Assembly: GCA_018389105.1 (NCBI GenBank)
Contig: JACATO010002187.1
Location: forward strand, 1-64,000
Length of the DNA stretch: 64,000 nucleotides
Source of the DNA: Nautilus pompilius
Taxonomy: Eukaryota; Mollusca; Cephalopoda; Nautilida; Nautilidae
Direction: 5' to 3'
Shown: piece by piece, positions 21,744 to 57,053 of the stretch
How positions within the stretch are numbered: position 1 is the first letter of the stretch
Layout: each line of letters begins with the position of its first letter
The notes under the pieces: generated by a model
What the model was told of the DNA's origin: nothing
Database searches by the model: none
Seen by the model: the letters and a program-made list of their open reading frames with translations, nothing else
Position numbers and translations under genes: made by a program

Positions 21744-21770
21744 ATTGTTGGGAATGGTACCACAGTTTTC

Positions 21771-24097
21771 CTGAAGTAAATGAAAAATGGTTTTAATGAA
21801 AAGCTAATTCTTAAACGACAGACCATAAGATCTGCACCCCCATTCTACTTTATTAACACTGACTAACAGTTTTGGTTCACTTTTCTAACACAATTTGTTC
21901 AAAACTATTATCAGATCCTTTTTCTGCCAGCATATACAGAAGCTGTAAGCAGGAATACAAACAGGAGTCAGGCACTGGATAGGGCCAAAAAGAATTTATC
22001 TTAACCAGATGAGAAAGAGTTAAATAACATGCTGGTATAACTATTCTATAGTGGCATGTGGAAAGTGAATGGTGAGGAATGATGCTACCTGAGAATGACA
22101 GCCAACATTAGGAAATAAAAGTAGGCCTGAGTGTGGGGTTCTGGCATGTAAGGGATAAGGGTGAGCAGGAAGTGGCAAAGTGTTTCCACACTCAGAACAT
22201 TTTTAGGAAAGAAACCACTAAAATACATTCACCCTAGTGTTATTCTAAGTAAAAAAATTAACCTAAGTAGCATATACTATCTGCAAGTAAATTTATTATA
22301 ATTCAGCTACTCACTAATAGACGTTCACTCTTGTAGAAGTTTTCTAGCTTTATGAAAAATGGCGAAACAGACCGATGGAATTCAGAAGACCTGGAATCTA
22401 TGCATTAGAAATAATAGTTAAATTAAAAAGTGGCCATTTATATAACTAGCAAGAAAATGACATTTCAAGTATTCAACTTCACCACAGGGATACTTCCTCA
22501 TGGACTGGTCAAGAACAACAGCCCATGTGTTCAGTGGGGTTAATGCCCAATGGTTGGCCAGGCCTTCAAAGATTTGCGATGCTTTTACTCTCTTACCATT
22601 GTGTTGGGTTTGGTGCTTTAGGGATGAGTCGAAGCACACATTCTCAATTCAAAAAAAAAAAGAACTACCTATTTTGGACAGATGGTCAAAGACAGGCTGA
22701 AGTCCCTCTCAGAAACGTTCATGCATTGCGAAGAAAATGCAGCTCTATTAAAGACTGCAAATGTAGCCACATGACACAAATTGCAGCCAACACCATGAGA
22801 GTTGGATTACCCTACTTCATCATGGGTTGCAGAGAGTGACACATCCATACATGACCACTATCTGAGAAGTGTCAAAATCTGGAAATCTGGACTCATAAAA
22901 AGAAGAGAGACAGCATTCCAAGAGGCAGGAGTGTGTGGCAGCATCTGCATTCTTCATGCAACTGATACTGACGTTATGTGGGACGAGGAGAGCTTTGCAT
23001 CTCACTGTTCTTTTGTTGTGCCCAAAGGTTGTGGAGATTGTGCCTGATGTTTGTCGTGGATACCTGCTTGTTCTGCCAGTTTCTGCACTTTCCCTTGTTT
23101 CATCAAATTTCTGAAGCCAAGACACAATGAAGTTCTCTCATTGCTTTTCTTAAACAAGACAACCATCCTGTTAGTCGACGATAGTAAAATACACATTGCC
23201 ATGGAAATTTCCCACTGGCAATGACTATGTACTCCAACCAAAGTCCATCATTGCCTGGCCTAGCAGTTTGTGGAATGAGGCTTACCTGGTCTGTACCTAC
23301 TGCTTTAGTTTGCAATCATGGGTATGTCTTAATGCCTGTTTAAGTCTCAAAGGATGTCAATTTACCTATGTCAAGTCTCTGTATACAGACAATAAAAACT
23401 AGTTCAACTTATGGAAAAATGATGATGATGATGATAAAGGTTACAATAATTTTATTAAAGGAGAATCAAAAGTATTTATAAACCAATCAAGAAATAATAT
23501 TTCACAATCAAAAAAAAAAAATAGAATGAAGAAAACAAGGTTCATGGCTTCAATATTTGACGTTGAACAAAATTAATTCTTTTTGATTACTACTAAAATA
23601 ATTCACATTTTATTCAATCTACAATAATACTTTTTATAATTCTGTAACTACTGTTTAGAACTATTAGTACTAACTTTTCCAGTTTTTTAAAAATTATTTT
23701 TAGTTTTTGCTTGTTTTCGTTTTTTAAAAAGTCTCATTCTGATTATAAATTACAAACACTTAAGTAACATCAAACAAAATCCTTTCTCTTTGATTGGATT
23801 TTATAAGACTTTAAAGAAATGGCATAAAATAAACTAGTGATTGTCCTTAATTTACAGTTAAATTCTAAAAGGTGCTGTTTTTTTCTGAACTGAACAATTC
23901 ATAATAAGTCACCAAATGTGAAGTAGAAAAGTAAACACAACATACAGTAATCATTTTAATGAGGAAATTGTTGTTTTACACTTGAAAGTTTACCTGCACC
24001 AAAAAAAAGTATTAATAATACAAATCTAACTTTCTAACAGGTCAGATGATCAATATTTTAATATTTAGTAAAATATGTATTGTAGTTCATAATAGTC
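21771..24097. other. Upstream region of the left RHIM-DD gene
   Basis: This should contain the promoter and any 5' untranslated exon of the RHIM-DD gene, but no TATA box or clear first exon could be fixed. Short ORFs at 22500-23400 occur on both strands with no recognised domain. They may be debris of an old mobile element. A short (GAT)n run lies near 23420-23434. The rest, up to the arm edge, is very AT-rich. Confidence 0.35.
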
Positions 24098-24911
24098 CTG
24101 CATAAAATATCAAGTTTCTGTACAAGGAAATCTGACTTTCTAATAATAAAAAAAAAAGCCAGAATATTAAGTATTTAATAAAACTTCAAGTTTCTGTACA
24201 AGGAAATCTGACTTTCTAATAAGTAAGTAATAAAAAAAACACAAGCCAGAATATTAAGTATTTAATAAAGCTACTGTGGTATTGTAAATTGTTTTTTATT
24301 TAGTAGTAACAGCGGTTTATAAACTTTAAAAAAGATGTCTTTGCTAATTGTAGTAATGAAATCAACTAGTTTATTTTATGAAGAAAAGCAAAGTCAAAAA
24401 AACAACTAACAAAGTAATGAGTCTAGAACCTATAAACTGTCAATATGTGAAGTGAAATTGTGTTTGCGTGTCAGATGATACTACAGGAGTTTATGAAAGA
24501 GAGTGGAACTTAAAAATGAGATTAATAAGTATATTTGTTACAGCTGATGCATGTTTAGTTAAAACCGGCAGAGCCAGAGATTGTTGTTGAAATCTGCTTT
24601 ATCACTCTGTTATAAATATACACTTCGGAAAATATTACACAACATTTTAATAATATGTAATGTTAATCGATTGATGCCTTGGGAGTTTACTGACATCGCC
24701 AGCCAGCCATGTACAGTACACTGGACAGATGTCGTCCACCCAAGTCAACGGGAAGACTGCAGCAGGGATACGAAAAGGTTCAGCGACGAATCTGATGTGT
24801 CTGATTCGCCTACACCCCACCCTTCATACGTTCATATATATAAGGACAGGTGTCGGGGACCCGGAGTCTTTCTTAAATGACCGGGGGATGTTTGATAGGA
24901 GGAAGTGGGTC
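24098..24911. other. Spacer segment without palindromic partner (left side)
   Basis: Non-homologous to the matching position on the other side (29447-29724). It starts with a two-unit direct repeat (24111-24268) and later has short ORFs (24581-24923) with no recognised domain. Confidence 0.4.
24111..24268. repeat. Two-copy direct tandem repeat, about 75-83 bp
   Basis: Unit 1 (24111-24185) and unit 2 (24186-24268) both start CAAGTTTCTGTACAAGGAAA and end with AGAATATTAAGTATTTAATA. The second has an extra AAGTAAGT-like insertion. It begins 14 bases inside the inner edge of the left arm. Confidence 0.85.
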
Positions 24912-25997: not shown

Positions 25998-28009
25998 ATC
26001 ACTGGTGATACACTTAGGTAGGGTAGATGGGAGGGACTGGTTACGCCGACGTGAATCGGATATTTGACCTGCTGACCGTGGACCCCATGCACGGCGATTA
26101 TGGTCACCCATTGGATTCCTGGAAAAAATTAACTAATCACAAAGCATCAAAGTCATACGTCAATGGTCAGCAAAACCAAAAGAGAATCCTCCTCGTTACT
26201 AGATCCCAAAATGGGTTAGTAGGAGAGGAACCACACCCCACAGTCAGATCAATTCAAAGACCTAAAGTGCCCGCCTCCGTAAGGAGGATGTATGCAAATT
26301 GTGTGCTTACTTGTATAATAAGGGCACTATTTAAGAAAATAAATTAGTCCCATTTTATTTTTGAATATATCTCATTCAAATTTTCATATTTATAAAGTGA
26401 TAAATATTATTTAATAATATTTTTCATATATTACGAAAGGCTAACTTTAAAATTCCTTTTTTTCAGTAAAAAACAAACGCCATCAGATTACACATTTCCT
26501 TAATTGGAAATAAACTCAATTTTTATTTTGTTCTCAAAATATTTTTAATATCCCAAACTTGACATACTATACTGATTAATAGCAGCAAACAAGCCAATTT
26601 TCTAACAGGTAAACACTGAGTTACTTACTTCTGTATTCATCATCCACAGAATCATGAACATCCATCCTGCCTATCTCCTTTAATGCTGCTTTTAGATTTT
26701 CTACGGCCTCACATTCAGATTTATTTTTCCCAATACAAATCTGTCGCCAGAAGTGCAGGATTTCAATTAGCCATCTATTTGAACCGTTCGGAAATTTACT
26801 TTCTATCTGTTTGACAGTGGCTAATGGCAGCTCCAAGTGAATACCCAGGTCAACATATTTTGAGATATTACTGCTGAGTTTCAAAAAATACTTATCTGTA
26901 AGGAATTCTGTAAAAGAAAAAACAAACAAAAAGAAGCTTTCATATACTGTAAGAGGAAGAAGAGTGACAGCAACATTGGAAAGACATCTCCAAATAACTG
27001 TACATGTAACTGATCCTTAATTTCAAATTTTCACATGCCATTCGCCTCTACTCAGGCCAACAATACCTGTTCATCTCACTTTCGAGTGATCACTCTTGGC
27101 CACACAAAAACCACACTGTATTATGGAAGTGTAGTAACTATAACTACTATATGACGTAAACAAAAACAAATGCAGCTTGCATTATGTGAAACAGCCCCAA
27201 CTTCATTATCCAGGAAATGGCCTGAACATTAGAGAATAAAAAGGAAATCATACTTACTATATGGAGACGTTTTTAGGATGAATGTACCTACAAAGACATA
27301 AAAGTAACTCCCTTCATTAAAAAAATCTCTGCCTTCAAAGTCAAGTCTATAAAAGATTTGTACTAAAAGTATTCTTTATAATTACCATCTAAATTCTAAT
27401 TCCACATAAACCGTCTATTTACAAAGTAAAAATATGTCCATCGATGAAATTTATAAACTAACTAAACGACTGACTGGTCACTTGTCTTTGTCTGTCTAGC
27501 TAGCACACCTGCCTTCGCTACCATCTGGCTCGGTAGTGTGCAAACAGCACTCCGCTGAAACCACAGAGTTGGTTGGTTCCTTTAAACAAGGCCAGCCAAG
27601 AGATTTGTTGAAGGAGACGAATGAAATAGTCAGTGTGCACTGAAGAGGGTATGTCTCTGCTTAAGTGCACTCAGGGTAGTCTAGCAAGAGTCTGAACTTA
27701 GAGCTACTTGCAGATGCTCTGCGACTGATCCAATGGTGATGTTACTTACTGATGATGGATGCTATTTCAGGCAAAGTCACCTGTGATTCTATTTCATGCA
27801 TACACTTGTAAAGCCTTTTTCTTTTTTTTTAAGAACCCTGATTAGGAATAAGAATGTCTTGCTGCTGTCACAGGAAACAGCTGGTTTTGTACAACACTGA
27901 GAGCTCGGAAAAACAGTTAGTCCACTTAAATTTATACAAATACAACCAACCACATGGTAGATAAAAAATAGAAATTGTTGGTGAGGATGTGAACCTGGTT
28001 TTTAGCTGA
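25998..28009 (-). pseudogene. Third, partial copy of the RHIM-DD gene in the spacer
   Basis: This 2.0 kb block is a direct-orientation copy of left-arm 16342-18598 with an internal deletion of about 235 bases. It carries exon 3 (27287-27258) and the death-domain exon (26907-26629), both with intact splice borders and open frames. It lacks the exon with the start codon and RHIM motif and the normal terminal exon. The death domain differs from both arms (FLKL for LWRL, W92 and I94). The alternative 3' exon (26118-25922) is present in phase, and its C-terminus diverges at the copy edge (QAELKLASSRKR). Probably a fragment; it could still supply exons if transcribed. The left edge sits at a small palindrome, GTATCACTGGTGATAC. 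Confidence 0.8.
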
Positions 28010-29446: not shown

Positions 29447-29724
29447 GCGATGGCCGCCCGGCGCACGGTCGCCCCTCGCCATATACACGTGGTTTTACAT
29501 GTTTATTATGTTAATTATTTTCGCGGTAAAATAAGAATTTTCTAGCCTTAAAAAAGTTGAAAACAATATAAAAAATATCAATTAAATCATATTAAAAGAA
29601 TATTAAATCGAAATAAAATACGTAGCGTACAGCAGATGAGTAGACAAAGACTCGCACGTATGGAAAACGCAGCTACGGCCGCTTCCGCTTGAGCTAGTTT
29701 GCCCACGTGACATCGTACACGGCA
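29447..29724. other. Spacer segment without palindromic partner (right side)
   Basis: A 278-base stretch between the inner and outer inverted repeats. It is partly GC-rich at its ends. No gene recognised. Confidence 0.4.
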
Positions 29725-32054
29725 GACTATTATGAACTACAATACATATTTTACTAAATATTTAAATATTGATCATCTGACCTGTTAGAAAGTTAGATTT
29801 GTATTATTAATACTTTTTTTTGGTGCAGGTAAACTTTCAAGTGTAAAACAACAATTTCCTCATTAAAATGATTACTGTATGTTGTGTTTACTTTTCTACT
29901 TCACATTTGGTGACTTATTATGAATTGTTCAGTTCAGAAAAAAACAGCACCTTTTAGAATTTAACTGTAAATTAAGGACAATCACTAGTTTATTTTATGC
30001 CATTTCTTTAAAGTCTTATAAAATCCAATCAAAGAGAAAGGATTTTGTTTGATGTTACTTAAGTGTTTGTAATTTATAATCAGAATGAGACTTTTTAAAA
30101 AACGAAAACAAGCAAAAACTAAAAATAATTTTTAAAAAACTGGAAAAGTTAGTACTAATAGTTCTAAACAGTAGTTACAGAATTATAAAAAGTATTATTG
30201 TAGATTGAATAAAATGTGAATTATTTTAGTAGTAATCAAAAAGAATTAATTTTGTTCAACGTCAAATATTGAAGCCATGAACCTTGTTTTCTTCATTCTA
30301 TTTTTTTTTTTTTTGATTGTGAAATATTATTTCTTGATTGGTTTATAAATACTTTTGATTCTCCTTTAATAAAATTATTGTAACCTTTATCATCATCATC
30401 ATCATTTTTCCATAAGTTGAACTAGTTTTTATTGTCTGTATACAGAGACTTGACATAGGTAAATTGACATCCTTTGAGACTTAAACAGGCATTAAGATAT
30501 ACCCATGATTGCAAACTAAAGCAGTAGGTACAGACCAGGTAAGCCTCATTCCACAAACTGCTAGGCCAGGCAATGATGGACTTTGGTTGGAGTACATAGT
30601 CATTGCCAGTGGGAAATTTCCATGGCAATGTGTATTTTACTATCGTCGACTAACAGGATGGTTGTCTTGTTTAAGAAAAGCAATGAGAGAACTTCATTGT
30701 GTCTTGGCTTCAGAAATTTGATGAAACAAGGGAAAGTGCAGAAACTGGCAGAACAAGCAGGTATCCACGACAAACATCAGACACAATCTCCACAACCTTT
30801 GGGCACAACAAAAGAACAGTGAGATGCAAAGCTCTCCTCGTCCCACATAATGTCAGTATCAGTTGCATGAAGAATGCAGATGCTGCCACACACTCCTGCC
30901 TCTTGGAATGCTGTCTCTTCTTCTTTTTATGAGTCCAGATTTCCAGATTTTGACACTTCTCAGATAGTGGTCATGTATGGATGTGTCACTCTCTGCAACC
31001 CATGATGAAGTAGGGTAATCCAACTCTCATGGTGTTGGCTGCAATTTGTGTCATGCGGCTACATTTGCAGTCTTTAATAGAGCTGCATTTTCTTCGCAAT
31101 GCATGAACGTTTCTGAGAGGGACTTCAGCCTGTCTTTGACCATCTGTCCAAAATAGGTAGTTCTTTTTTTTTTTGAATTGAGAATGTGTGCTTCGACTCA
31201 TCCCTAAAGCACCAAACCCAACACAATGGTAAGAGAGTAAAAGCATCGCAAATCTTTGAAGGCCTGGCCAACCATTGGGCATTAACCCCACTGAACACAT
31301 GGGCTGTTGTTCTTGACCAGTCCATGAGGAAGTATCCCTGTGGTGAAGTTGAATACTTGAAATGTCATTTTCTTGCTAGTTATATAAATGGCCACTTTTT
31401 AATTTAACTATTATTTCTAATGCATAGATTCCAGGTCTTCTGAATTCCATCGGTCTGTTTCGCCATTTTTCATAAAGCTAGAAAACTTCTACAAGAGTGA
31501 ACGTCTATTAGTGAGTAGCTGAATTATAATAAATTTACTTGCAGATAGTATATGCTACTTAGGTTAATTTTTTTACTTAGAATAACACTAGGGTGAATGT
31601 ATTTTAGTGGTTTCTTTCCTAAAAATGTTCTGAGTGTGGAAACACTTTGCCACTTCCTGCTCACCCTTATCCCTTACATGCCAGAACCCCACACTCAGGC
31701 CTACTTTTATTTCCTAATGTTGGCTGTCATTCTCAGGTAGCATCATTCCTCACCATTCACTTTCCACATGCCACTATAGAATAGTTATACCAGCATGTTA
31801 TTTAACTCTTTCTCATCTGGTTAAGATAAATTCTTTTTGGCCCTATCCAGTGCCTGACTCCTGTTTGTATTCCTGCTTACAGCTTCTGTATATGCTGGCA
31901 GAAAAAGGATCTGATAATAGTTTTGAACAAATTGTGTTAGAAAAGTGAACCAAAACTGTTAGTCAGTGTTAATAAAGTAGAATGGGGGTGCAGATCTTAT
32001 GGTCTGTCGTTTAAGAATTAGCTTTTCATTAAAACCATTTTTCATTTACTTCAG
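29725..32054. other. Upstream region of the right RHIM-DD gene
   Basis: Mirror of 21771-24097. It should hold the promoter of the right RHIM-DD copy. ORFs at 30509-31407 match those of the left arm and have no recognised domain. No TATA box or first exon could be assigned. Confidence 0.35.
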
Positions 32055-32081
32055 GAAAACTGTGGTACCATTCCCAACAAT

Positions 32082-35000
32082 ATGGCACAAAATAAGAAAA
32101 CCCCTGGTAAGTAACTTTCTAAAGAAAGTGCTAAATAATAGTTGAGCTTTTCTAAGTATTGATGTTACAAAACTAATATTTTTTAAGAATTTATTTGTGC
32201 TTTGAGTTGACTGTTAGGTTTAGAGCAGCGATGTTCTGGAGTTTGTTCGAGTTAAGTAATAAAACTCTTAGTTATTTTTCCTTCACTGTTCCCTTATAAC
32301 ATCTGTGATCCTCAGATCCTGTGTGTTTACCAACAAAAGCAATTACCAAAAGAAGCAGGGACAGTTTTGAATGAGAGAGAAAACATTTTTTACAGTTTTT
32401 GTTTTTCAAAAGATTCTATGAAGAACAAGATGAAAATAAACGTTGATGCAGTTTAGAATGTTTTGCAGAGTTTTGATTATCAGAAAGACATGTATCTGGT
32501 GTTGAGTTACTGCCTTGCTTGACCTTTAAGTCTTCTAACTCCATTGGCGTATGTGATGCCCTTACATTTCAGAATGTATAGTGAGAAGGAAACTCCTTCA
32601 AACATCTGTTCCTCAGCCGGTGCTGCATGTTTACAGCAACACACATTTGTGTGCATCTTGATGAATCTGGTTGGCCAACATCTCTGACTTTTGCAAGTCT
32701 CTGATTCATCAACAATTCCAAGTTTTGCATGAACCATTACACATTGTATTCTTGTGATCATGATGCCTCTGTGGCAGACTCTACCTTAGGAACATTGCAG
32801 CATCTCTCTAAGTTACAGAGCATTACTGATAAGATTAAATATTTTGTTTTAACAGTTTTCATCCTACCATTTTTCAGAGTAATATAAAAGATGATAGGGA
32901 CAGACAGAATGGAGACAAAGTCATTTCCTATTACTAACTAGAACAGCTCAGTTTCGTTTGCACTGAAAATATCCCTTGGGCTATAATCCCACAAAAGTGC
33001 TGTCAATCTCCAGTCTGACACAGACACTGACTGCTCTGTTGCACGCAGTTTTGTAGACCATTCCTTTGAATTTCTAATCCCTTAAATCATCCTGAATTGG
33101 GAGTAAAGCCACTAACTCATAGTTCTTTCATGACAACAGAGACTTTCTCCACCAACATTTGTCCTTATATGGAAGTGTTCATGCTGATGCCAAACAAAAA
33201 GAGCATTATCAAGTTTTTTCGCCTGGCCTTTTCCCTCATTTACTTCCAAGTGGACTGGGATGCAGAGGAGTTGAAGGCTTTGTTGACCCCTTCCCTTTTT
33301 TTGTTTCGTTTGTGAGACTTGTTGATTCTGTTGGATTTACAATGCCATACTTCTGGCAGATTTCAGTTTTTGTCCCTTTTCTGGAATCAGTTTCTTTTAT
33401 TTTTATTTTGTCTTTAAAAGAGATGCTATGTTTCAGCATGATGGTAACTCTGTTATGTATTGAGAGAATTCTATAGTAGATTAATTTCAGATGATGACCT
33501 ATGAATGCGTGCGAAACATGCTTGAGGATGACCAATCAGTGCAAGTAAAACAAAACACCTTTTCCGCACACTGCACATCTCAACCATGAACCACACTTGT
33601 ACTGGGCGATCTATGAAGGAGTTCCCTTTTTTTGTAATAAAGATGTTAAAAATGTTTTGTAATAAACATTAGCTGTTATCGTCTTATGCGTAACATTTAT
33701 AATGAGAGACAAAAGGTAACAAAGTCTGGAATTCACACTTCTTTTGCAATAAGGGTGAGTTCATATTAACCATTTTACTTTTGTGGAGTGCATTGTGGCA
33801 CTGTCTTGGTACTCTGGCTTGCAGCTTCTCGTTATTGCAGTTTCAAGGGCAGGCATGGGCTGCTGCTGTTTTTATTGCACTTTCTGCTGCTCTTTGCCAG
33901 GTCTTCACATGCCATTCTGAACTAGTTTTAGTCACCAAGAAAACAGATTTTTGTCTCTCTCTTTTCATTTTTAAAATTTTTTTACATTGGCGCATATTCC
34001 ACGAAGTACCAAAGTAAAGATTTGGCTTTAAAGTTTTTGTTTTCGCTAAAAGAAAATTATTATTAACATTTGTGATTAAATCATAAAATTGTTATTTTTT
34101 AGATATGAAGATAAAAATACAATCAGGCTGTATGCAAGTTGGAAGCAGCAACATAATTAATATCAATTCTAGAGGTGCTACTTCAGGTAGGTTCATATAA
34201 GCTTCACACAAGAAACATTAAATTATTTGACTTAATTCCCTGATTGGTTATTGCCTTTAAACGAAGGTTCAAGATAAATCAGGTTTTGGCTGTGCTGCCA
34301 TTTTGACGTAAATTTCGGAATTTTGTTTGTCTACTTATTTACAGAACCAGTACTAATAGTTTTCAATTTGTTTAGGTTCTTTTAGTGTTTTTTGTCCTTG
34401 AGGCATACTTGCCTTTCTGAGCATTTCTACCCAGGTGTTCTATAATTACTCAAACACCTTAGTCAGATATTATCATCACAATGCAGTGCTCAGGGGTAGC
34501 TCATCCTGCATTTCTTTCTCTCAGTTTGTAAAGAATCATAAGAATCCATACATCAGTAGTATGCGAGCATGTGAGAGCATATGGAGACTCGTTCGACAGA
34601 AGATGCGTGGAAATAACAAACGAACACTTCTGGTTAAGTACGGTCACTTATGTCACCATCAAGACAAAGCTCTGAGAATTTTGATGACATTTTCAAGGAA
34701 AAAAAAGTATTCACGAAAAACTCAATATTTCACTATCTTCTGCTGACTTGTTGTACGGTGACCATGTCCAATGAAACAAACCTATTCTCTTGGCATTCAA
34801 AAATTCAGCCTAAGAATTTTTTTTTTAAATTCTCTTTCTTTTCTATGCCCAGATTAATTAGAAGGTGAACCTACAGTTAGCACTAATGAAATGTCATATA
34901 AAGCAGAATAATTCTCTCCAGAAAGTGTGTTAAAAGATGGAGACTTCCCGGCAGTTTTTGACAAATTTTCCATTTGAAAATGTATGTTACACTGAAATAT

Positions 35001-37586
35001 GACAGAGAAAATCAAGAGTTTAAAACAGTAAAATGAGGAGGTGATTTTTTAGGATAGAATTGGTGAATGGCGAGTCAGGGTGCTGATGTTAGTATAATAA
35101 TGTTGGTCCAGGTGAGAGTTTAAGAGCTCTTCATCTTACAGATTTCCATTATCAGACCACACCTTCTTATCTGAAATTATTTATTTTATTAGAATTTAAA
35201 ATACTTGGTGATTGTTTGTCATCTCATCGTCAGCTAAAAACCAGGTTCACATCCTCACCAACAATTTCTATTTCTTTATCTACCATGTGGTTGGTTGTAT
35301 TTGTATAAATTTAAGTGGACTAACTGTTTTTCCGAGCTCTCAGTGTTGTACAAAACCAGCTGTTTCCTGTGACAGCAGCAAGACATTCTTATTCCTAATC
35401 AGGGTTCTTAAAAAAAAAGAAAAAGGCTTTACAAGTGTATGCATGAAATAGAATCACAGGTGACTTTGCCTGAAATAGCATCCATCATCAGTAAGTAACA
35501 TCACCATTGGATCAGTCGCAGAACATCTGCAAGTAGCTCTAAGTTCAGACTCTTGCTAGACTACCCTGAGTGCACTTAAGCAGAGACATACCCTCTTCAG
35601 TGCACACTGACTATTTCATTCGTCTCCTTCAACGAATCTCTTGGCTGGCCTTGTTTAAAGGAACCAACCAACTCTGTGGTTTCAGCGGAGTGCTGTTTGC
35701 ACACTACCGAGCCAGATGGTAGCGAAGGCAGGTGTGCTAGCTAGACAGACAAAGACAAGTGACCAGTCAGTCGTTTAGTTAGTTTATAAATTTCGTCGAT
35801 GGACATACTTTTACTTTGTAAATAGACGGTTTATGTGGAATTAGAATTTAGATGGTAATTATAAAGAATACTTTTAGTACAAATCTTTTATAGACTTGAC
35901 TTTGAAGGCAGAGATTTTTTTAATGAAGGGAGTTACTTTTATGTCTTTGTAGGTACATTCACCCTAAAAATGTCTCCATATAGTAAGTATGATTTCCTTT
36001 TTATTCTCTAATGTTCAGGCCATTCCCTGGATAATGAAGTTGGGGCTGTTTCACATAATGCAAGCTGCATTTGTTTACGTCATATAGTAGTTATAGTTAC
36101 TACACTTCCATAATACAGTGTGGTTTTCGTGTGGCCAAGAGTGATCACTCAAAAGTGAGATGAACAGGTATTGTTGGCCTGAGTAGAGGCTGGATGTATA
36201 TACATTCAAGGTTGATGCTGAGTATGGTATGCCAATCTTTCTTGTCTACTAACTTTGCTTCAGTTCTCATTTCCTCCTGTAGGACAGTCCTATCATGTTT
36301 ACTAAAAGTATCCTTTACATTTTTCTCTTTTATCTCACTGTGCATTTAAGAAAACCTTTAGTCACAAAATCATAACGTAATTCATTGGAATCTTTGATCG
36401 TTTATCCTAAAGATGTACAAATGTTACGAATGGCATGTGAAAATTTGAAATTACAAGGAAAGGATCAGTTACATGTACAGTTATTTGGAGATGTCTTTCC
36501 AGTGTTGTTGTCACTCTTCTTCCTCTTACAGTATATGAAAGCTTCTTTTTGTTTGTTTTTTCTTTTACAGAATTCCTTACAGATAAGTATTTATGGAGAC
36601 TCAGCAGTAATATCTCAAAATATGTTGACCTGGGTATTCACTTGGAGCTGCCATTAGACACTGTTAAACAGATAGAATCCATGTTTCCGAACGATTCAAA
36701 TAGATGCCTATTTGAAATCCTGCACTTCTGGCGACAGATTTGTATTGGGAAAAATAAATCTGAATGTGAGGCCGTAGAAAATCTAAAAGCAGCATTAAAG
36801 GAGATAGGCAGGATGGATGTTCATGATTCTGTGGATGATGAATACAGAAGTAAGTAACTCAGTGTTTACCTGTTAGAAAATTGGCTTGTTTGCTGCTATT
36901 AATCAGTATAGTATGTCAAGTTTGGGATATTAAAAATATTTTGAGAACAAAATAAAAATTGAGTTTATTTCCAATTAAGGAAATGTGTAATCTGATGGCG
37001 TTTGTTTTTTACTGAAAAAAAGGAATTTTAAGTTAGCCTTTCGTAATATATGAAAAATATTATTAAATAATATTTATCACTTTATAAATATGAAAATTTG
37101 AATGAGATATATTCAAAAATAAAATGGGACTAATTTATTTTCTTAAATAGTGCCCTTATTATACAAGTCAAAGCACACAATTTACATACATCCTCCTTAC
37201 GGAGGCGGGCACTTTAGGTCTTTGAATTGATCTGACTGTGGGGTGTGGTTCCTCTCCTACTAACCCATTTTGGGATCTAGTAACGAGGAGGATTCTCTTT
37301 TGGTTTTGCTGACCATTGACGTATGACTTTGATGCTCTGTGATTAGTTAATTTTTTCCAGGAATCCAATGGGTGACCATAATCGCCGTGCACGGGGTCTA
37401 CGGTCAGCAGGTCAAATATCCGATTCACGTCGGCGTAACCAGTCCCTCCCATCTACCCTACCTAAGTGTATCACCAGTGATCTCTTTAAAGTCCTTTAAA
37501 AATTCTATTTTTCTGTTTTTACAGACTCACCTTATCATGTTCAAGAGTCAGGAGACAAAAATAAGTTGATTGGTGGAGGCTGCTGA
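32082..37586 (+). CDS. RHIM-death domain adaptor (IMD-like architecture), 159 aa (right copy)
   Basis: Exons 32055-32106 (ATG at 32082), 34103-34186, 35953-35982, 36571-36849 and 37525-37586 (TGA). All junctions are GT-AG and phase 1. The RHIM exon is identical to the left copy: residues 19-29, MQVGSSNIINI. The death domain (residues 48-135) differs from the left copy at 75, 76, 79, 83, 84 and 87 (L, D, K, S, M, N here against F, A, Q, A, N, K). No kinase or caspase domain is encoded nearby, unlike RIPK1. Role by family knowledge: RHIM proteins nucleate amyloid signalling complexes, and DDs recruit FADD/caspase-8- or MyD88-like partners. A DD-SH2 gene lies 3.8 kb downstream in the same orientation. 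Confidence 0.72.
32934..33434 (-). pseudogene. Fossil Tigger transposase fragment (right copy)
   Basis: Mirror of 20390-20890 with the same frameshifts and stop, inside intron 1 of the right RHIM-DD gene. Sharing the same damage shows the decay predates the arm duplication. Confidence 0.6.
37164..37569 (+). other. GC-rich candidate alternative 3' exon of the right RHIM-DD gene
   Basis: After the acceptor AATTTTTTCCAG (37361), a phase-1 frame IQWVTIIAVHGVYGQQ stays open through the normal last-intron acceptor to a stop at 37567-37569. The antisense ORF (37452-37168) is shorter than its left-arm twin, which weakens the case for an antisense gene. See the left-arm entry at 16254-16462. Confidence 0.3.
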
Positions 37587-38017
37587 AGCAGGAAACACTG
37601 AACTGCACAGTGGCTTATAATTGAAATGAAAATGGAATTTTCCAACATCACAGTGGTGATTGGCTAGAACAAGGAAGTGCATTTCCAAACTGACGTCACA
37701 ACTGTATGTGCTAACAGGATCACTATCGTACCTCTCATAATGGTCGAGATGTGTTCTGGAGGAATCCGTTAGGCAGTCAGTCTGCTGGAGGAGTTCGTTG
37801 TAGCAGCAGCTAGGCCTGCTGAGACACATTCCCCATAGGATCAATTTCTACTTTATAAATGCTATAGGATGGCTTTCTTGGGCAACAGCACTGGCTCTGC
37901 TGATGTTGTCATGGTGTTCTATAAACAGAAAGAAGACGACGTTAACACGTGACATGAAACTAAATTTAATCAACACTCACCGGTTAATTTTGTAGGAGCC
38001 TGACGTGTTGTTTGCCA

Positions 38018-38441
38018 TTACTGCTGCACTCCGACTGCACGGCCACACCCATTTCTTGGCGGTGGTTGAAGATGGGGGGAAGAAATACTGCTAGAAAACC
38101 AGCCCAGACTGTGATCCGTCCTCCTGAAAGCTTCATGTTTCTTCACAAAGAAAGTAGCAATGGTTGGCTGTCTAGCCTTCCATTTCTTGTTGCGAAGCAT
38201 CTCCTCATAGGGGGCAAAACCATCCAGCACAATTCTCTTCCCTTCTGTGCTTTGCTCTGTATCTGTGTCGTTTTTGGTGACAAGCTCCAGGGCATCCACG
38301 GCATCCTGAAGACATTAGAGGAAGCTGAGCCAAATGCTCCACTCATTGTATCACCCGCATTTAAGCAGGTATTTTAGTGACCTTCCTGGTCACCTTGGCT
38401 GCCTTTCCAACACTCGCTCTTGCAGGCCGTTTGCCAGCCAT
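38018..38441 (-). CDS. Small basic PIP-box protein, possibly PCLAF-like, 115 aa (right copy)
   Basis: Two exons, 38441-38382 and 38305-38018, mirror the left copy with the same 76-bp intron. The PIP box QPTIATFF (residues 66-73) and the basic N-terminus are intact. Against the left copy I see Asn-to-Tyr and Phe-to-Leu changes shortly before the PIP box and two changes near the C-terminus. The frame stays open, so either selection or a short divergence time is possible. Oriented tail-to-tail with the RHIM-DD gene ending at 37586, about 430 bases away. Confidence 0.5.
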
Positions 38442-40779
38442 AATGGCCTAAAAAAAAACGTTACCAAGACAGAATCTACACAAATCTTGGTTGGATGGGA
38501 GGATGTAAAGAAATAATTAAGTTGATGGTGTCCATGTTTTTGGCTCTCTTTCTTCTATTTTTGATGGATTTTTGAACAAAGCTCTGTTATATAAGAGCTA
38601 TGATAGTATTAAATACATGAAACTAACCTGGATGTAGAGAAGAGTCTGGCCAGATCTTGTGTGGAATTTCAGTTGAGGAATATGGATTCCCTGTTAATTT
38701 ACTTTAGAAAACAAAATGAAATTAGCGAAATTCCTTTGCCTCAAATTTGATTGTTTGCCTTCACTGAGCTTAGCACTATATACTAGTATATACTGTTGAT
38801 TTCAGTTAAAAAGGCTGCAGTTATTTCTGGTTGAGTTTTAATTCGGTTGATGATCACCAGGATATTGGAAAATTCATTTTCATTTCAATCATGCCTTTGT
38901 GCCATGCAGAGATTTTTTGTTAGTTTTCATCAAACATGAATAATGTTAGACTGGAAGGCTGATGTGCAGCTATAAAATTATGAAATAAAATCAGTCCTAT
39001 TCCTTGCTTTACTGTTTTTTCTTTATTAAAGTTCAAATAATTAATTGTTCCTATTTTGAAATTGCAGAATGTTTGATGTTACAGAGAATTTGCAGGTTAG
39101 AGAGAGGCAGGGAAGATGTAGCCATTGTTGGCTCATCTTATGAATGAACGGTGGGTGTGTGGGTAGGTGGCACAGAATTGGTTTTGAGACAAGCCGATGT
39201 AGTTTTATTTTCGGCAGTCTTTCTAGATGCAACCCTGTATGAAAGGTACACCAGACCGCGCCAAACCTTCGGTGGCTGGCTTTACCTGCAGAGGGAATCA
39301 ACTCGAGGGTTTTCTCTGTGGTGGTTTGACTGCGAGGAATTCTTTTTTTAAAACAGCCAATTTGCGGCTTTGAGTGCAGTTGCAGATCTCTACCATTAGC
39401 TGCTTTGTCTGTATTAGAATGCTGCAACTGCAGTTTTGCCTTGGCATCACAAACCATTAGGCATTGGGGGTCTTTGAGCGTTTTGAACCAAATCTGCAGA
39501 CAGGTGGCTGCGTGTTAAGTCTTCTGCTGCATGTAAGGAAATACTGACTCGTCTGCAAAATTGGAGGAAAATTCAGATAGTTTACAAAAGAAACTTTAGG
39601 AAATCTCTCAGAGCAGCTATTGCATGAATGCTTTCAATGGATGTGATTTTTGTTTTGTTTTTTGTGCGGCTAACTTCCGAGAAGTGGGAATTCCAAAAAA
39701 AGCAGTGTCACCTGTTACGTGATGACCCATTTTAAAGATATACTTCTTCAAACCAAAATGACCAAGAATTCATTAATTTTCTGTTTCGAGATATTAGAAC
39801 TGAGAAGTACCGTATTTTTTGGACAATAGATTCAGCTTTGAGCCTTGGATAGGTCCAATTTTAATATGGGGCGAGGCTTGAAATTTGAGGAAAAAAATAT
39901 CGACTTGTATTTTGAAAAATATGTTAAATAGTTGCTGATAATGGACAAGGTAGCTATATTTTGCTGCTTGCTATGCAATGAAACATTGATGTTTCCACTG
40001 CAGACAGGATTAATTTTGTAGTTATAACCATAAAACAGAATTGCATTAAAGACTTGAAAGCTGTTCTAAAGTGAATAATGGTAAGAAAATAAGGGAAGTT
40101 GATATTTGTGTATTAAGAAAACAAAATAAATTGTCCCAACCGAGTTCAGCATACACACTTTGTATCATTACATGATTTTAGCTTCAGCCAGTAATAGATC
40201 AAAGTAACTAGTATATTTATCTCCCTATTTAGAAATACTAATACAGTTTACAGACCTGGCACGTGTGAGGCTGTTTGTAATCGCTTGTCATAAAGTAATC
40301 TTTCAGGCACATAAAATCTGTGATCTCCAAACTTGAGAAACCCCAGTCACTATCTATCCTTTCTGTACCACGCAAGCTAGAAGGTCCTGTCTATTGGTCT
40401 CTTGAGTAAAAATGTCAAGGGCAACCTCACATTGAAGACAAAGGAACAGTGAGCCAGTCGCTATTTGGAATCTTTATTGGCACACATTCTAAACTGTAAA
40501 TGTCTATGATTTTCTGGACGACAAGTTCTTAAGAAAGAGCACCAGGGTCTAATTCTACCAGTGCAGTTGTGCTATATCCCAACATCTGTGATGGAGACTA
40601 CCTGGTGAAGCAGTGTAGTGCGGGAGTCGTAAACCAGGGAGCGTTGTTGATGTTCACCACATAAGGGGAACCCGGCATTTCTTTGGCCGGGCCATTGCAG
40701 TTATCATTGTTTTGTTTTCCTTCTCTTTGATACAAGGGTTCGGGTGACACTTTCGGTTACCAAACATTAGAACAATTGA
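38442..40779. other. Intergenic sequence between PIP-box and DD-SH2 genes (right)
   Basis: Mirror of 13061-15382. The 138-codon ORF at 39041-39457 (minus) is broken into two frames in the other arm and has no domain, so it is not called. Nothing else recognised. Confidence 0.35.
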
Positions 40780-41672
40780 CCCCCCCTCCCAACATTTCAT
40801 GCACCTGTTGGCGTTGAGAATGGGGTGCCTGCATCATCGTCCATCAGCAATGGGAAGTCGGAAGTTTCGATCTGGAGCAGACGAGGGACATGGTTTTGTC
40901 CATCAGCTTCCTACAGTGTGATGCGGGTCAGAATTACCGGGACCTCACCAACGGAAACTCGGCCTTAGCCTGTTGTCTGCTCAGTGGCGAGGCTACAGGG
41001 GGGGGGGGCGGTCGCCCCTGTGTCTGCTGTATCCCTTGTTTCGGTTCTTCTGAATGTCTACAGGAAACCGAGACCGGGCTCAGCGCAACAGTATTTTGAC
41101 AACGTTGTCTTATCAGTCTACGGAAACCCCTGTTTTAAGGTCTAAGTGGTGGAGGGGGGGGGGCCGGCTGTGTTTCGGGTACTTCTTCAGGGTTGATGTC
41201 TGTCGGGACAGGTATGGAAACTCGCATTCGCATCTCTCAATCTGCGCTGGACATTTAAATAAGGGAGATAACTGTGATTGAAAAAAAAGAAGAAATTCGT
41301 CAGCGCATTTCCTGGTTAAGGATCTGTTGGGGCTCCCGATGAACATCGACCGGAATGTCAGCCAAAGCTATCGGCAGCATGTGGACACTTTGCCGGAGGC
41401 CGTGCGAAAGATGATCGGAGAGACCCTGACGTCGTCGGCCGCTCAGCTCTGCAGCCGAGGCTGGAAGGATGTCGGGGAGCTGCTGGGCTACTCCGGCGAC
41501 CAGCTGAAGAAGATCGGGGAGTACGCGCGGGTGCGCCGGGAACTGGAGGGGTTCACCCTCATCAGAGACTGGGCGAGTAGGGGTGACGGCAGCACCATCT
41601 ACGTGCTGCTCCGTACGCTGCAGGGATGCGGCCGGTTAGACTGCGTGGAGCTGTTAGAGAAGGCGGTTGAGG
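40780..41672 (+). promoter_or_regulatory. CpG-rich upstream region and first exon of right DD-SH2 gene
   Basis: GC- and CpG-rich against an AT-rich background. It includes AAGGGAGATAACT at 41260-41272 and G-runs near 41000 and 41155. An open frame with LQCDAGQNYRDL (40890-41099) lies here without splice support. In this arm the upstream ORF seen on the left is lost because its ATG is GTG (41274). Confidence 0.35.
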
Positions 41673-41999
41673 GTAGGTGGCTGTTCTTCGTTAGCTAATG
41701 GCTGGGGGGGGTCAAAGCCTGGTATTCGGGGTTATAAAGGGGAGGGGAGGGCTGGACCCACAACCCTGTATGTAAGAACGCATCTGTCAAACTCCTCTCC
41801 CTGTCGACGGCCTGCGATCGCCCGTGGGATCCGCACCCTTCACCGACCGGATTAACCACGGTGAACTCATTCCAGACCGTCGCTGTATCTTCGCTGTTCC
41901 ATGGAAAATGTTAATTCAGACAGATGAGTTGACTAACAAGTTATAGGGGTTTGGGGGGGGTAGAGTCCGCCTAAAACATCCTTAAAGGCTGTAGGAGAG

Positions 42000-42076
<77 letters not shown>

Positions 42077-45000
42077 TTAGTTCATCAGTACAGATCAGGA
42101 ATTGTTTCAAGCATCTCTCGTTTTGTTTCCCTGGTTTCTAATAAAGTCTCTGTCTGATGTAAGGTCAGCCAGTCTCCTTCCGTTCGGCTCCCTAATGATA
42201 TTTCGCTAAGGTGACACCTCACCTGACCTGGTATGGACCATACAGGTAGAAACCACAATTTACTCGGATCATGGGAGCTGGAGACATTCCCTTTTTAACA
42301 AATCAAGGTAGTGCGTGCATTACATATGCTGCGAGAAAATAACAATCATAGCCTCAAAGTTCAGGTGTAAATATCTATGTCTTTTAACACATTATTGTAA
42401 TTGTTATTACCTTTTCTTCTTTCAACTTAACAAGAATTAAGGTAGTCAGTCTCTCACACACAGGTAAGTGATTGTTCAGTGATTATTTGGCCACGCACTT
42501 ACAACTTCAGCTTGATGCTCACTAAGAGGAAGGTTGTCAAGCCAGTCTCTTGTGCTGTGCCACAGGGACTCCTATTTCTGGTCTACATAAATGATGCTGT
42601 AGGCAGTACAAGAGTTTATTCTCAAGTTAAGAGCAAAAAAAGGAGATAAGTTTCTTCAAATAAACCCGGATAATTTATTATCGGATTTAGAGTTTAGCAT
42701 CAAACAAGAAATATGTCATTGTATGGTCGATAATTTAGCCGAAAAGTGTAGTCTCAGGAAAGGATCTGGAGTTATTTGCATATAAAAAAACTATTAGGTG
42801 TGAAAACAAGGAATTTACACTGCTGATGGAATGATTAGACTGATTAACCACGAGGTCAGAAACGTACAAAGTTAGTTGATTCCCTTCTCAGATACACTGC
42901 AGGTTTGGATACCATATCAAGGACACTGTAGAATTAGTGGAGCATGTTTAACAGATTCGCTGGAAGGTCCCCCAGTTTTAATGATTTAGAATATATACAG
43001 AAATTTGAAAATATTATTAGTTGTTTCCTACTTTGGACTTTAGATGTTTGAGAGGAGCTTTAGTATAATTAGGGGTTCTGACCAAGTTGCTTTCTCTCGG
43101 TCTATCTAATTATTAAAGCTGTGATAAGTTGGCTAAGAAGTCGGCATTGGTCAATATCAGGAAACACCTGTAAAATTATGGAATTGTAAACAATCGTATA
43201 ACAGTTAATACTCATAGTATAAATCAATTTAAGAGCTGTTTTGCTAAACATGGGAGCCTATCCTTAATGGCTTCCTTTCTCCTTGTAACCACTAAACTAA
43301 GGTAACTAAATGAGAATCTTCTTCATTTTTGGGTTGGTGTTCTCTAACCTCTGCAATTGCTGACTGGTATTTTTTGTCTTATCCTAGATGTTAGGAAGCT
43401 TAATAGCATTAATTTCCTGTTTAAACAATAATATGTTGAGCAGAAGTAGATGTGAGAAAGACGGCCCTGCTGAAGAAAACAATGACAACAAGTGGAAGTA
43501 CAAGCAGTGTTGGTTCTGAGTGGACATCAGCATTACCATAGCAACTATGTTGGGGTTAATGTGTTACTGTAAAAGTAGAAATTGTGCATTTGATATTTTT
43601 GCTTCTTCCCATTCTTGTATCAGACAGTTTTCCAAATTGTATCCAGCAAGTGTGGTTATGTCTGTCAAATAGTCCAGTAGCTTCTAGAGCCAACATTAGT
43701 TAATTTCTGCCCCAGTCCAGGATGGAAAGACAGCTATGTGATGTGGGTGCCCTGTTTTTAACATCTGAAAAAATGGCACAGCTGTTTTTATTATTCTGGT
43801 TATGGCATATGTACATTTACTTTTTCAGAACTGAATTCTATTACACTTTACATCTGCGTAGAGAGAGATGGAAATCGTGCAGATTGCTTGCTAGTTAAAA
43901 CAGTGAGAGGAGCTTCACTTGAAGACAGCATAATAAACATTCTAGAAAATGGAGGCACTAACAATTACACAATCGTCCAGCCTCCAAACTGTGACTGGAG
44001 AAATAGAGCAGAAAGTTTAACGGTAAGGAAACTTAATGGAAATCATTTCTTCACTCAGACTCAAATTCTCTGGTATGGGTGGTGTTGTGGAGGCAGGAAC
44101 TAACATTAATGGGCCATATAATATCCACCTTTCCACCATTGTATTGATACATTAAACCTTGAATAGAAAACAAATTCACTACACAAACTTACTCAGTGTA
44201 CACATTGCACATGGATACAGGTATTTGACAGTGAAAATAATTTTATTTCAGGGGCAGATGATTACTATTAGAGAACTCCCAAATACGATAAATGTTCCAG
44301 TGGAAGCAGCAGAAGTACAGGTTGGTGCATTACCATCATCTACAACTCTGTTTAGCACAAGAGAAACTTCCAACGTGGCGTGAAACTGCTTTTCTACATT
44401 CCTTTGAATCTTTCTTTATGGTTTGTGAGGAAGTTTTCGTATGCTACACTTCACCGCTTTATGGTTACCCATCGGCTGTGCTAGATGACGTTTGTGTTGT
44501 TATTGTCTGGATGATGTGGCTAAAGAAAATTAGATTTTACTGGTCTGACTAGTAGGAGCTCGCCTGGAATATAGTGGGAATGTGCGGAGAAAAGGGACAC
44601 TAGTTAAAGACTGAAAACCAAGAAGTTGCTTTAAATTGTATTTTTTTTGAGAAAAAGAATCAATTTAATACTTTAGAGAATTCACCAGATCCAAATAAAT
44701 CCATTTTCTAGGATTTTCTCTAAGCAGAATGGAAATTTTACAGACCATAATTAAGGAAAGTTTAGAATAGCGGGAGAAGAATAGAAAAGGGGAGGCAGGT
44801 GGAATTAGCCAACTCTGTTGAGTAGCACAGGAATTTTAACGTTTTTGTTCTGGAGTCACTAGCCAATATATAAGGGGGGGGCTTCCCTTCAGAATTGCTT
44901 CATTGTTTTGAGAATGATATCACTTCACGAAATCATCACCTCATCCTCTTCTAAAAGCAGTAACATTTGTAACATTGTTTCTCCCCAATGAAGGGCTCTG

Positions 45001-48000
45001 ACTCCTTGTCGTTTTGTGAAGGAGGGCACATGTTTGTACCTGTAATGCAAAGTAACCCATCGACAACCTCGTTAAAGAGACCAGATGAAGCTTCCACACC
45101 GGAGCAGAATGTGATGCCCGACTCTTCGCATCCTACATCCTCAGAAATCAGTTTTGGCATAAATGAAATAGATGCATTTTCTGGCATTCCTGGTGTTTGT
45201 AAAAAGATTGAGACACAACAAAAGGTATGTATAAAGTATACATATATATTTATTTGTTTATCCTATGGCATCTCTTGTCACATATGTGCTGTCTTTTCTC
45301 TTATCTGTCACCAGTTTAATATAGTTTGGGCATATCTTCTTTGTCAGTGATGATTGTTGATTGTTTTTATAACAATTACTTTTCAGTTCCTGGTTCCTTG
45401 TAAATCAAAGGGCTCTTTAAATTTTCTATATGCCAACATTTTTCTGCATCTCTATCTACTCAAGTGCTCCACAGGTGCACACTTTGGTTCCCCGTTGCTT
45501 ATTTGCTGCTGTTTTTCTTTTCCTCAGGTAAAAAGCTGCATTGATGCTCTTCTTATTTATAGTATTTGTTTCAGTCTGGGTAAAGGTAGAAGTGCTCTCA
45601 GATTTCTCAGTTAAAAATTCGGCAATGATAAGATAATAAAGAAGAGACAGCCTATTACTATAACCTACTATTGTTTTATTACTTCCTTAAAATAGCTGTT
45701 TGAAATTTTCTCCATGATTCTAAGTAATTCATTTGATTATTTAAAGGACCAGTGACCTGCACACAACTCCATTGGTCATTACTTGTATTTATGTTACTCC
45801 TCATATTGTGCAGCATCTGTGTTGTATTTGTATGGACATCTTTAAGCTGAGGTTACGCTTAACTAGTTATTGCTTTAAAGGCTCTACAGCACTTCTGTGA
45901 GGATTCTCCATGGCAGCTGCTTTAGTCTAATCAGTAAGTTACCTCCCCTTGTTTGCTTTTCTTCTCTATAACCTACAGGTATTTGTTTTTTTTTTTTATA
46001 GTGTGAACAACATTTGAAGCATTTTCTCAAAAGCGATGGCTGTTACATGGTTTGGTTTGACCGAAAGTATCAACAGTTACGTGTTAGTGTGAGGTATGCT
46101 ACTCAGTCTGTACGTTTTCGTTGTGTCTGCTACAGTTTGACCGACCGAAGCCATCTTTTTTTAATATTAGGATAAAAAGAAAATTCTATCAGAAACGTCA
46201 CGAAGTAATACATTCTGGTGATCAGCCTGATTTACACAGATCCACAGGATGAAATGCTGTCACACACCTAACTAATGTGTGATTAATAGGTACGTTTTCT
46301 ACATTTCCCTCAATAATTTCAAGTGGATCTGTCATGATTCTCGTGGGGACTGTTCTTCTGAGCAGTGATGATTGAGAAGGCAAACTGTGATTATAACTGA
46401 CTGATGCGGAGGAAATTTTGATCAGTTTTAAAACTCAAATGCAAAGAGACTAACAGGTAAGTCTGCATTTAAGGTGTTTTAATTGTAAGAAATAGTAAGC
46501 GAGTTCTTCCCTGCTGCGGTGCTTTAAAAATAATAATTTAGGGTGAATTTCTCTTCTCAGGAGATTTTAATAAAATCCAGCTCATAAATACTTGAAAACG
46601 AGAAAAAAAAGGGGGGGTTGTTCTCGAATAACTTTTTCTCTGTTGTATAATAAGTCAATTTTTTATTTGATTTGCCTGTGCCCTCATATTGGTTGTTGAT
46701 GTTCTCGTTTCAGCCATTTGGGAGAAATCCTTCACTACACGATCTGTAAGATACGCGGCGAAGGTTCCACGGTTAGATACAGAATTGACGAAGACGAGCG
46801 GATGGCCAACTCTGTCCTCGAACTGATTGGGATGTATAATCGGATAAATCTGGGGCCCCCTAAGCATTCAAGAACAGCTACATCTTACAAGCATGTCCAC
46901 CTTGAAGTTCCTGTTTTCATAGAAGATTAAACTATTTGATCAACAATGGCGCCATTCAAAACAGAAACCCTCGACTTGCCTCTGAAGTCAAGGGGAATCA
47001 GGCTTGCTGTCTGTTGGACAGCTTTGATGCAGATTTCTCTTTGGATGCGCTGAGTGATTCGTTTTCCATAAGATAGCTGCCAGCTCTATGTCCATCCTTG
47101 AAGCATGCAGATGAAGACTCGGTTTCATAAACAGGTACAAAATGGCATTGAATTTAATTATGAATTTTTAAAAATATACAGAAGACTCACCTCAGTTTGA
47201 TAAGTTAATTTTGGTCAGTGCAAATATCTCTCTTTTTTAAGGTTTGTTACTTTTATTTTAGTGATGTGTAATTGCTGTAGCTCTTTGTGATTCCCCGTGT
47301 TGACTTCAGGGTTCTGAAGACATCTCGCTGGAGGTAGCCTTGGATACCACACACGTTACCTGGTTACAGTTGGTGGTGTCTGGTGCAGTGGTCAAGGTGT
47401 GATCCTTGTGCCCAGAAAATTCTTACCAGAATTTACTGTTTAGCTCCAGCCGCCTAGACAGACTGATGCAGAAGAGTGAGAAGAAACCAGGCTGCTGAGG
47501 GATTTCCAAAGCATGTTGAATTTGATGAGAATTTAACTCTGGCCCTTATCCACAGCAAGTCAGCAGACCTTGTGCTCAGCTATCTGCTGTCCCAGTGTAC
47601 AGACACACATGCATTTTATTATTCCCTGGAGGATTTATATCTTATACTAATGCACATTAGTGTTAAAAAGAAAATAATAACAATTAATTCTAAGCCAGAT
47701 TTCTACAACTCTGTTTAGCACAAGAGAAACTTCCAACGTGGCGTGAAACTGCTTTTCTACATTCCTTTGAATCTTTCTTTATGGTTTGTGAGGAAGTTTT
47801 CGTATGCTACACTTCACCGCTTTATGGTTACCCATCGGCTGTGCTAGATGACGTTTGTGTTGTTATTGTCTGGATGATGTGGCTAAAGAAAATTAGATTT
47901 TACTGGTCTGACTAGTAGGAGCTCGCCTGGAATATAGTGGGAATGTGCGGAGAAAAGGGACACTAGTTAAAGACTGAAAACCAAGAAGTTGCTTTAAATT

Positions 48001-50297: not shown

Positions 50298-51069
50298 ACT
50301 ATTTGATCAACAATGGCGCCATTCAAAACAGAAACCCTCGACTTGCCTCTGAAGTCAAGGGGAATCAGGCTTGCTGTCTGTTGGACAGCTTTGATGCAGA
50401 TTTCTCTTTGGATGCGCTGAGTGATTCGTTTTCCATAAGATAGCTGCCAGCTCTATGTCCATCCTTGAAGCATGCAGATGAAGACTCGGTTTCATAAACA
50501 GGTACAAAATGGCATTGAATTTAATTATGAATTTTTAAAAATATACAGAAGACTCACCTCAGTTTGATAAGTTAATTTTGGTCAGTGCAAATATCTCTCT
50601 TTTTTAAGGTTTGTTACTTTTATTTTAGTGATGTGTAATTGCTGTAGCTCTTTGTGATTCCCCGTGTTGACTTCAGGGTTCTGAAGACATCTCGCTGGAG
50701 GTAGCCTTGGATACCACACACGTTACCTGGTTACAGTTGGTGGTGTCTGGTGCAGTGGTCAAGGTGTGATCCTTGTGCCCAGAAAATTCTTACCAGAATT
50801 TACTGTTTAGCTCCAGCCGCCTAGACAGACTGATGCAGAAGAGTGAGAAGAAACCAGGCTGCTGAGGGATTTCCAAAGCATGTTGAATTTGATGAGAATT
50901 TAACTCTGGCCCTTATCCACAGCAAGTCAGCAGACCTTGTGCTCAGCTATCTGCTGTCCCAGTGTACAGACACACATGCATTTTATTATTCCCTGGAGGA
51001 TTTATATCTTATACTAATGCACATTAGTGTTAAAAAGAAAATAATAACAATTAATTCTAAGCCAGATTT
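44339..51069 (+). repeat. Tandem duplication, period about 3,366 bp, of DD-SH2 exons 4-6
   Basis: Unit 1 runs 44339-47702 and unit 2 about 47702-51069. The unit begins 19 bases after the donor of exon 3 and ends in the 3' region. At the junction (47700-47703) the end of the unit (AGCCAGATTT) meets its start (TCTACAACTC), with only one or two bases of shared sequence, which suggests end joining rather than recombination between repeats. The left arm has a single unit, so the duplication arose after the arms separated or was lost on the left. Confidence 0.93.
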
Positions 51070-51731
51070 GTTTTTAAATAGTGGAAGGGGGGCACAGTGA
51101 CATAGCCTGGTTAGAAGTGGCGAGGATTGCAGTCGTGCACTGGCTGGTGCATGTCTGGCTGATCTAGCTTACCTCTCTGAGACATCTCCCTTCTCTCCTC
51201 CACCTCTGACGGGCGTAGTTTTCAGCAGTTTTAGCGACCACCAGAAAATCACTGGTCTACCACATCGCTAAGTCTGTTCTCAATTGTTTACAATAGCCGT
51301 CTTATAGTAGGGGCCTTGCAACAGCAGCAGCACAGGTGCCGCAAGCGTGCAGAATGGCACAGGCAGTGCTTGCTGGACCGCATCCAAGAAATGCGTATTA
51401 GCATGGCGTACACACCACCTCTGTAAACTCTGCCATCTCTAAAGCTTTCAGCAAGCAGCACTAACGTTAATGCCACACGGCTGTAGTAAACAAGAGAGAA
51501 ACAGCCTCAAATTCATATTCCCCCCTCAACTGAATAAGTTTAATAGGAATCATCCCCATCCCAGTGCGTGATCTCAGTGGGGCAAGCCCATGTCCAAATA
51601 ATTTTGAATAATTAGTTTGCCTTTAAAATTTGTTGTTATTGACCACTTTGCTTATCATTTAGCTTCTTGTTCTTTAAAAATTTGCTTCCTTAACTTTCTG
51701 TTGATCATTTTACCTATTAGTAATTATAATA

Positions 51732-56800: not shown

Positions 56801-57053
56801 ATAATATGCACAGTTGTTGGGAAAAGTGATTTTTAAAGCACAAGAAGAAAATAAATCTAAAGTATGGAGCAGGCAGGGCCTGCACAGTGTGCCGAGGTAG
56901 AACGGAAGCATCGTTCTGCATGTAGCGAACAACCATGACGGTTAACCAGGTATCGGTGGGTCAAACTAACAGCCATTGTGCTGTTTTACATTTTTAATAA
57001 CAATCTAATCTTATTGATAAAAATTATAAACAATTTCTGAACTGCGTGAGTAC

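Follow-up and report, generated by a model that had tools for sequence, protein, structure and literature searches.

Closest Described Systems

IMD of Drosophila and other arthropods is a kinase-free adaptor of about 273 amino acids (aa), in which a RHIM-like motif stands ahead of a C-terminal death domain (DD) and the N-terminus carries a caspase-cleavage site and an IAP-binding motif. The same order, RHIM and then DD, is found in the C-terminal region of RIPK1. The DNA studied here, bases 1–64,000 of a 1.24-Mb contig (C2085) of Nautilus pompilius and hereafter the window, probably contains head-to-head copies of a small kinase-free adaptor gene, which would encode a short N-terminus, a RHIM-like motif on an exon of its own and a C-terminal DD. 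Judged from sequence, the predicted protein is IMD-like in architecture; we do not present it as an IMD orthologue and file it neither under IMD nor as a member of the Pfam RHIM family. Compared with IMD, it is shorter (159 aa), and its gene is multicopy and lies in a palindrome. In contrast to RIPK1, the entire predicted protein is only 159 aa long, and the window is devoid of HRD and glycine-loop kinase patterns.

The papers cited below are represented by their accessible sections, and statements of absence are limited to these. A RHIM-like motif has been described in Imd (PMC7885112). The nemertean Lineus ruber likewise has a spiralian death-domain adaptor called Imd; a DEATH domain is present there, but the surveys of that study contained no RHIM-encoding sequence, and neither the Imd adaptor nor RHIM-bearing PGRPs were found in molluscs or brachiopods (PMC9835746). 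The zebra mussel, other spiralians and lancelets are reported to have RIPK1 homologues that combine kinase, RHIM and DD; none were found in arthropods, echinoderms and cnidarians (PMC12119088). The accessible text of that paper defines RIPK1 homologues as kinase-bearing and reports no search for kinase-free forms; it conflicts with PMC9573974, in which RHIM occurs only in vertebrate RIP kinases. No kinase-free RHIM–DD protein of a spiralian was recognised in the literature searched, most subscription journals being outside its scope.

Gene Structure

The copy of the gene on the forward strand of the window (copy A) consists of the following features.

32055..32106 (+), exon 1; ATG at 32082, MAQNKKTP; an acceptor-like site before 32055 makes an upstream exon possible
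34103..34186 (+), exon 2, RHIM-like; DMKIKIQSGCMQVGSSNIININSRGATS
35953..35982 (+), exon 3; 30 nt, skipping keeps the frame
36571..36849 (+), exon 4, death domain; Pfam Death E 0.016 (sub-threshold), paralogue on contig C579
37525..37586 (+), exon 5, with the stop codon; alternative in-phase acceptor at 37361

The earlier note on this DNA had claimed a phase-consistent exon chain coding for 159 residues, and splicing of the five exons bore this out. The coding parts (32082–32106, 34103–34186, 35953–35982, 36571–36849 and 37525–37586, all on the forward strand) join into an open frame of 480 nt, corresponding to 159 aa and a stop; every intron is of the GT-AG type and all four junctions are in phase 1. 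The context of the ATG at 32082 looks favourable. Upstream of it, the frame is open through 32055–32081 up to the acceptor-like site preceding exon 1 and, because of this site and the second in-phase acceptor at 37361, the start and the end of the predicted protein are both provisional.

The interval between exons 1 and 4 (32107–36570) was compared with random intervals using splice rules that were fixed after the model had been seen. It contains exactly two candidate exons of phase 1-1, both of which belong to the model; the mean for random intervals is 1.2, so that exon 3 alone carries no significance. A RHIM-like core in a phase-compatible exon was found in none of the 3000 random intervals.

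RHIM-like Motif of Exon 2

Exon 2 contains KIKIQSGCMQVGSSNIININ, and MQVGSSNIINI is encoded at 34132–34164. The RHIM sequences of RIPK3 and RIPK1, taken as in the solved structures, agree with it in M/V-Q-V-G, in the N three residues past the G and in the hydrophobic residues that follow. The tetrad was defined as (V/I)-Q-(V/I/L/C)-G (accessible text of PMC9444067).

Several observations weigh against reading this motif as a RHIM. Position 1 of the tetrad in exon 2 is M, a C replaces the G before the tetrad, SG is displaced by one residue, and I stands in place of the aromatic residue after N. The match of the RHIM core “position by position” put forward in the earlier note was thus overstated. 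The profile search proposed there also failed to find the domain: Pfam RHIM (PF12721) gave no match at E 10 for the protein, for exon 2 or for the VQVG copy described below, while the positive controls, human RIPK3 (36.6 bits) and RIPK1 (26 bits), were recovered. A genome-wide RHIM search did not list exon 2. When 150 random windows of 64 kb were scanned blind in six frames, 60% of them had an equal or better 12-residue core, and a different segment of the window studied here outscores the exon 2 core.

The exon 2 peptide does outscore its own shuffles, of which only 22 in 20,000 reached its score, and 32 in 20,000 in a second run. Given how often random windows reach the core score, the motif alone was rejected as proof. 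It is insignificant without its splice context and unmatched in 3000 intervals with it; hence, it is the context that carries the weight, not the motif.

The copies of the gene add a further comparison. Six RHIM-like exons are present genome-wide: four, including the window's two, read MQVG, and one (copy C988_A) reads VQVG (SEYVQVG), a canonical tetrad. The sixth is one base shorter and has the bases for VQVG after the length change. Three adjacent codons are changed between GCM and EYV, and QVGSSNIINI is kept intact. As for other RHIM exons, the genome yielded five sub-threshold matches (E 4.2 to 9), the most RHIM-like being L001 (SVQLGKNNSMVV); by eye, all five were judged to be chance matches.

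It may be that exon 2 is real and its likeness to RHIM is coincidental, in which case the gene would encode a short protein with a death domain and a variable linker. The negative Pfam result with a working control, the frequency of the core score in random windows and the M at tetrad position 1 in four of the six copies all speak for this. Nevertheless, we consider it rather improbable: random intervals did not produce a RHIM-like exon, the altered copy reads VQVG with QVGSSNIINI unchanged, and proteins that combine RHIM and DD are already known (PMC12119088, accessible part).

Death Domain of Exon 4

The Pfam Death profile (PF00531) matches the predicted protein over positions 10–82 of 86; the next two Pfam families have E values of 0.031 and 0.12. 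The profile search suggested in the earlier note was therefore successful in part: the match exists (15.8 bits, E 0.016), but it lies under the cut-off of 22.6. Other results likewise count against the assignment. No death domain was found among solved structures with the whole protein or with a three-copy profile, the only matches of the 159-aa protein being two unrelated ones (E 0.16 and 1.2). The AlphaFold2 model is helical but of low confidence, with a mean pLDDT of 51.3.

The search of the 727.6-Mb assembly with this exon also led to a distant relative.

C579:68843–69220, distant death-domain paralogue; the exon ends in a stop

The paralogue scores higher with Pfam Death (21.2 bits, E 3.2e-4), still below 22.6. 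Its identity to exon 4 is 25%, with an E value of 2e-8 as a single comparison and 0.21 in the genome search. Among solved structures, it has weak death-domain matches (E 0.05 and 0.056), ranked below designed and unrelated proteins; we take these two structures to be of PIDD type. No strict RHIM pattern was detected in the 30 kb examined near the paralogue; a single loose-core match (L042, position 7339) is situated there on the other strand. In the searched collections of genome contigs and viral contigs, no relatives of the exon 4 domain were confirmed.

The window contains a further death-domain exon in both arms of the palindrome.

41282–41698 (+), second death-domain exon, above the Pfam cut-off
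12141–12557 (−), the same exon in the other arm

The exon at 41282–41698 has a Pfam E value of 9.9e-8 and is located in a GC-rich stretch (0.49 in 40001–42000). Its best matches among solved structures are NRADD (E 7.1e-5) and RIPK1 (E 0.015). BLASTP revealed no relation between it and exon 4 (E 2.3), and no relatives of it were found in viral contigs.

Kinase Motifs

A pattern test, as distinct from a profile scan, of all six frames of the 64-kb window turned up neither an HRD nor a glycine-loop pattern of kinases. A lone DFG-like match is present at 25286–25300 (−), with the other kinase motifs absent beside it. These results bear on the idea that the exons encode the C-terminal end of a RIPK1-type kinase, with kinase exons missed or cut off by the palindrome rearrangement, for which the acceptor-like site and open frame 5′ of the exon 1 ATG leave room and the kinase–RHIM–DD homologues of spiralians, the zebra mussel among them, and of lancelets (PMC12119088, accessible part) offer a precedent. 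We regard it as unlikely, since the patterns are absent and the DFG-like match is isolated, the sequence upstream leads through the spacer to the oppositely oriented mirror copy, and the ATG context looks favourable. A kinase-free adaptor gene remains the preferred reading.

Palindrome and Gene Copies

Copies of the gene were sought across the whole assembly. In the window, they are arranged in a large palindrome.

468..24101, left arm of the palindrome
29722..57830, right arm, containing a tandem duplication (44339–51069)
21719..21770 (−), exon 1 of mirror copy B, 100% identical to A
19639..19722 (−), RHIM-like exon of copy B, 100% identical to A
17845..17874 (−), exon 3 of copy B, 100% identical to A
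16972..17250 (−), death-domain exon of copy B, 9 substitutions against A (96.8% identity)
16237..16298 (−), exon 5 of copy B, 100% identical to A
26629..27287 (−), partial copy C in the spacer, with exon 4 (26629–26907) and exon 3 (27258–27287)

The arms are 99.4 to 99.6% identical in the aligned pairs 468–4423/57830–53878, 4422–9501/52785–47702 and 6136–24101/47702–29722. The assembly does contain the duplication of the gene in a palindrome that the earlier note described: the mirror copy, which lies on the minus strand, is complete, and the same layout is seen on two other contigs. In partial copy C, exons 1, 2 and 5 gave no match.

The genome search with the death-domain exon returned 13 matching pieces, representing nine copies and the distant paralogue on C579. 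The nine copies are distributed as three each on C2085, C199 and C988. C199 repeats the strand order of the window (minus, minus, plus), which is reversed on C988. Single-base gaps are frequent in both contigs (for C199:1–7052, 64 gap openings against 35 mismatches), so frame breaks there may be sequencing errors. A fold-back assembly artefact with unreal extra copies, to which the start of the left arm 467 bases from the contig start and the short, indel-rich C199 and C988 might point, is very unlikely, as the arms differ by clustered substitutions and both contigs repeat the three-copy layout (C988 reversed).

The tandem duplication at 44339–51069 consists of 3.4-kb units (44339–47702 and 47702–51069) that are 99.8% identical; the unit is single in the left arm. 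The palindrome spacer contains a 33-bp minisatellite (28765–29145), which seems to be longer in C988. About 100 bases 5′ of exon 1, a possible terminal exon of another gene lies at 31883–31948 (+) (LLYMLAEKGSDNSFEQIVLEK, stop), with AATAAA at 31971 after it. Just beyond the palindrome, 59312–60637 (−) is a 441-aa open frame with DDE_1, Brinker-type and Tc5 DNA-binding domains, presumably a pogo/Tigger-type transposase. COX1 matched 117 places in the genome, spread over many contigs and often interrupted by stops, which suggests that nuclear copies of mitochondrial DNA are abundant. In the best of these matches, TGA is the sole stop codon; under translation table 5, its ATA and AGA codons coincide with Met and Ser positions of COX1, in agreement with the invertebrate code. 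The encoded protein seems closer to molluscs and annelids than to insects, which makes an animal outside the insects, probably a spiralian, the likely source.

Variation between Copies

Substitutions were counted in exons 1–4 and in introns up to 37315; exon 5 was omitted because C988_B departs there. Copies A and B differ at 9 of 445 exonic and 11 of 4812 intronic positions (p 1.5e-5). Between A and C988_A, the counts are 21 of 443 and 22 of 4559 (p 8.3e-12), exon 2 accounting for four of the exonic substitutions and exon 4 for 17. The exonic excess over introns is 3.9- to 9.8-fold with p < 0.01 in 11 of 15 copy pairs, which share copies and are non-independent. That exons 2 and 4 concentrate the divergence amid near-identical introns supports both as coding exons.

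None of the four variable codons of exon 2 is synonymous. For exon 4, six of the nine rows were used (full-length, four distinct sequences), and three rows of other length were left out. All 21 variable nucleotides of the full-length copies fall within 36593–36727 (+), and the residue is altered in 15 of the 17 variable codons; codon 92 also becomes variable if the three rows of different length, which misplace codons, are included.

The variation has its own counterweights. The remaining four of the 15 pairs have p values above 0.01 (0.72, 0.022, 0.021 and 0.39), the pairs are not independent, and C199 and C988 are indel-rich. The nonsynonymous share is about neutral, with two synonymous and seven nonsynonymous changes between A and B over 55 synonymous and 221 nonsynonymous sites. 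Positive selection was considered from this ratio alone and is unsupported, the ratio being near the neutral expectation. The exonic excess may also stem from conversion by diverged paralogues or from old alleles.

Discussion

The earlier note had proposed a RHIM-like motif and a death domain in one protein without a kinase. The exon chain, the pattern scan, the interval test and the copies support this, although both domains are below their profile thresholds. Its assignment to the “IMD type” is retained for the architecture only: the death domain is unplaced relative to IMD, Pfam RHIM is negative and no IMD N-terminus is evident. In particular, inspection by eye of the predicted 159 aa, the N-terminus of which is provisional, revealed neither an IMD-type caspase-cleavage site nor an IAP-binding N-terminus. 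As regards order, RHIM and then DD, the protein also resembles the RIPK1 C-terminal region, and copy C988_A has a VQVG tetrad.

By analogy, the protein, if expressed, most likely works like IMD or like an adaptor corresponding to the tail of RIPK1. The chain we propose takes IMD and the RIPK1 C-terminus as its models: a receptor or adaptor acting upstream would seed the RHIM-like stretch into a cross-beta (amyloid) assembly. The assembly would cluster the death domains, which might in turn recruit other death-domain proteins as partners, the outcome being NF-kB or cell-death signalling.

A broader interpretation can be offered tentatively, and we hold it to be possible rather than probable: the copies could represent a non-arthropod family of kinase-free RHIM–DD adaptors amplified in a palindrome, with introns kept near-identical and diversification confined to the RHIM tetrad stretch and the first death-domain half, the pattern to be expected if these two interaction surfaces are targets of pathogens. 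If a kinase-free RHIM–DD gene in a spiralian is real, it would allow a test of whether IMD-type adaptors predate arthropods or arose more than once through loss of the kinase. Variation limited to exons would be a sign of conflict at the amyloid and death-domain interfaces.

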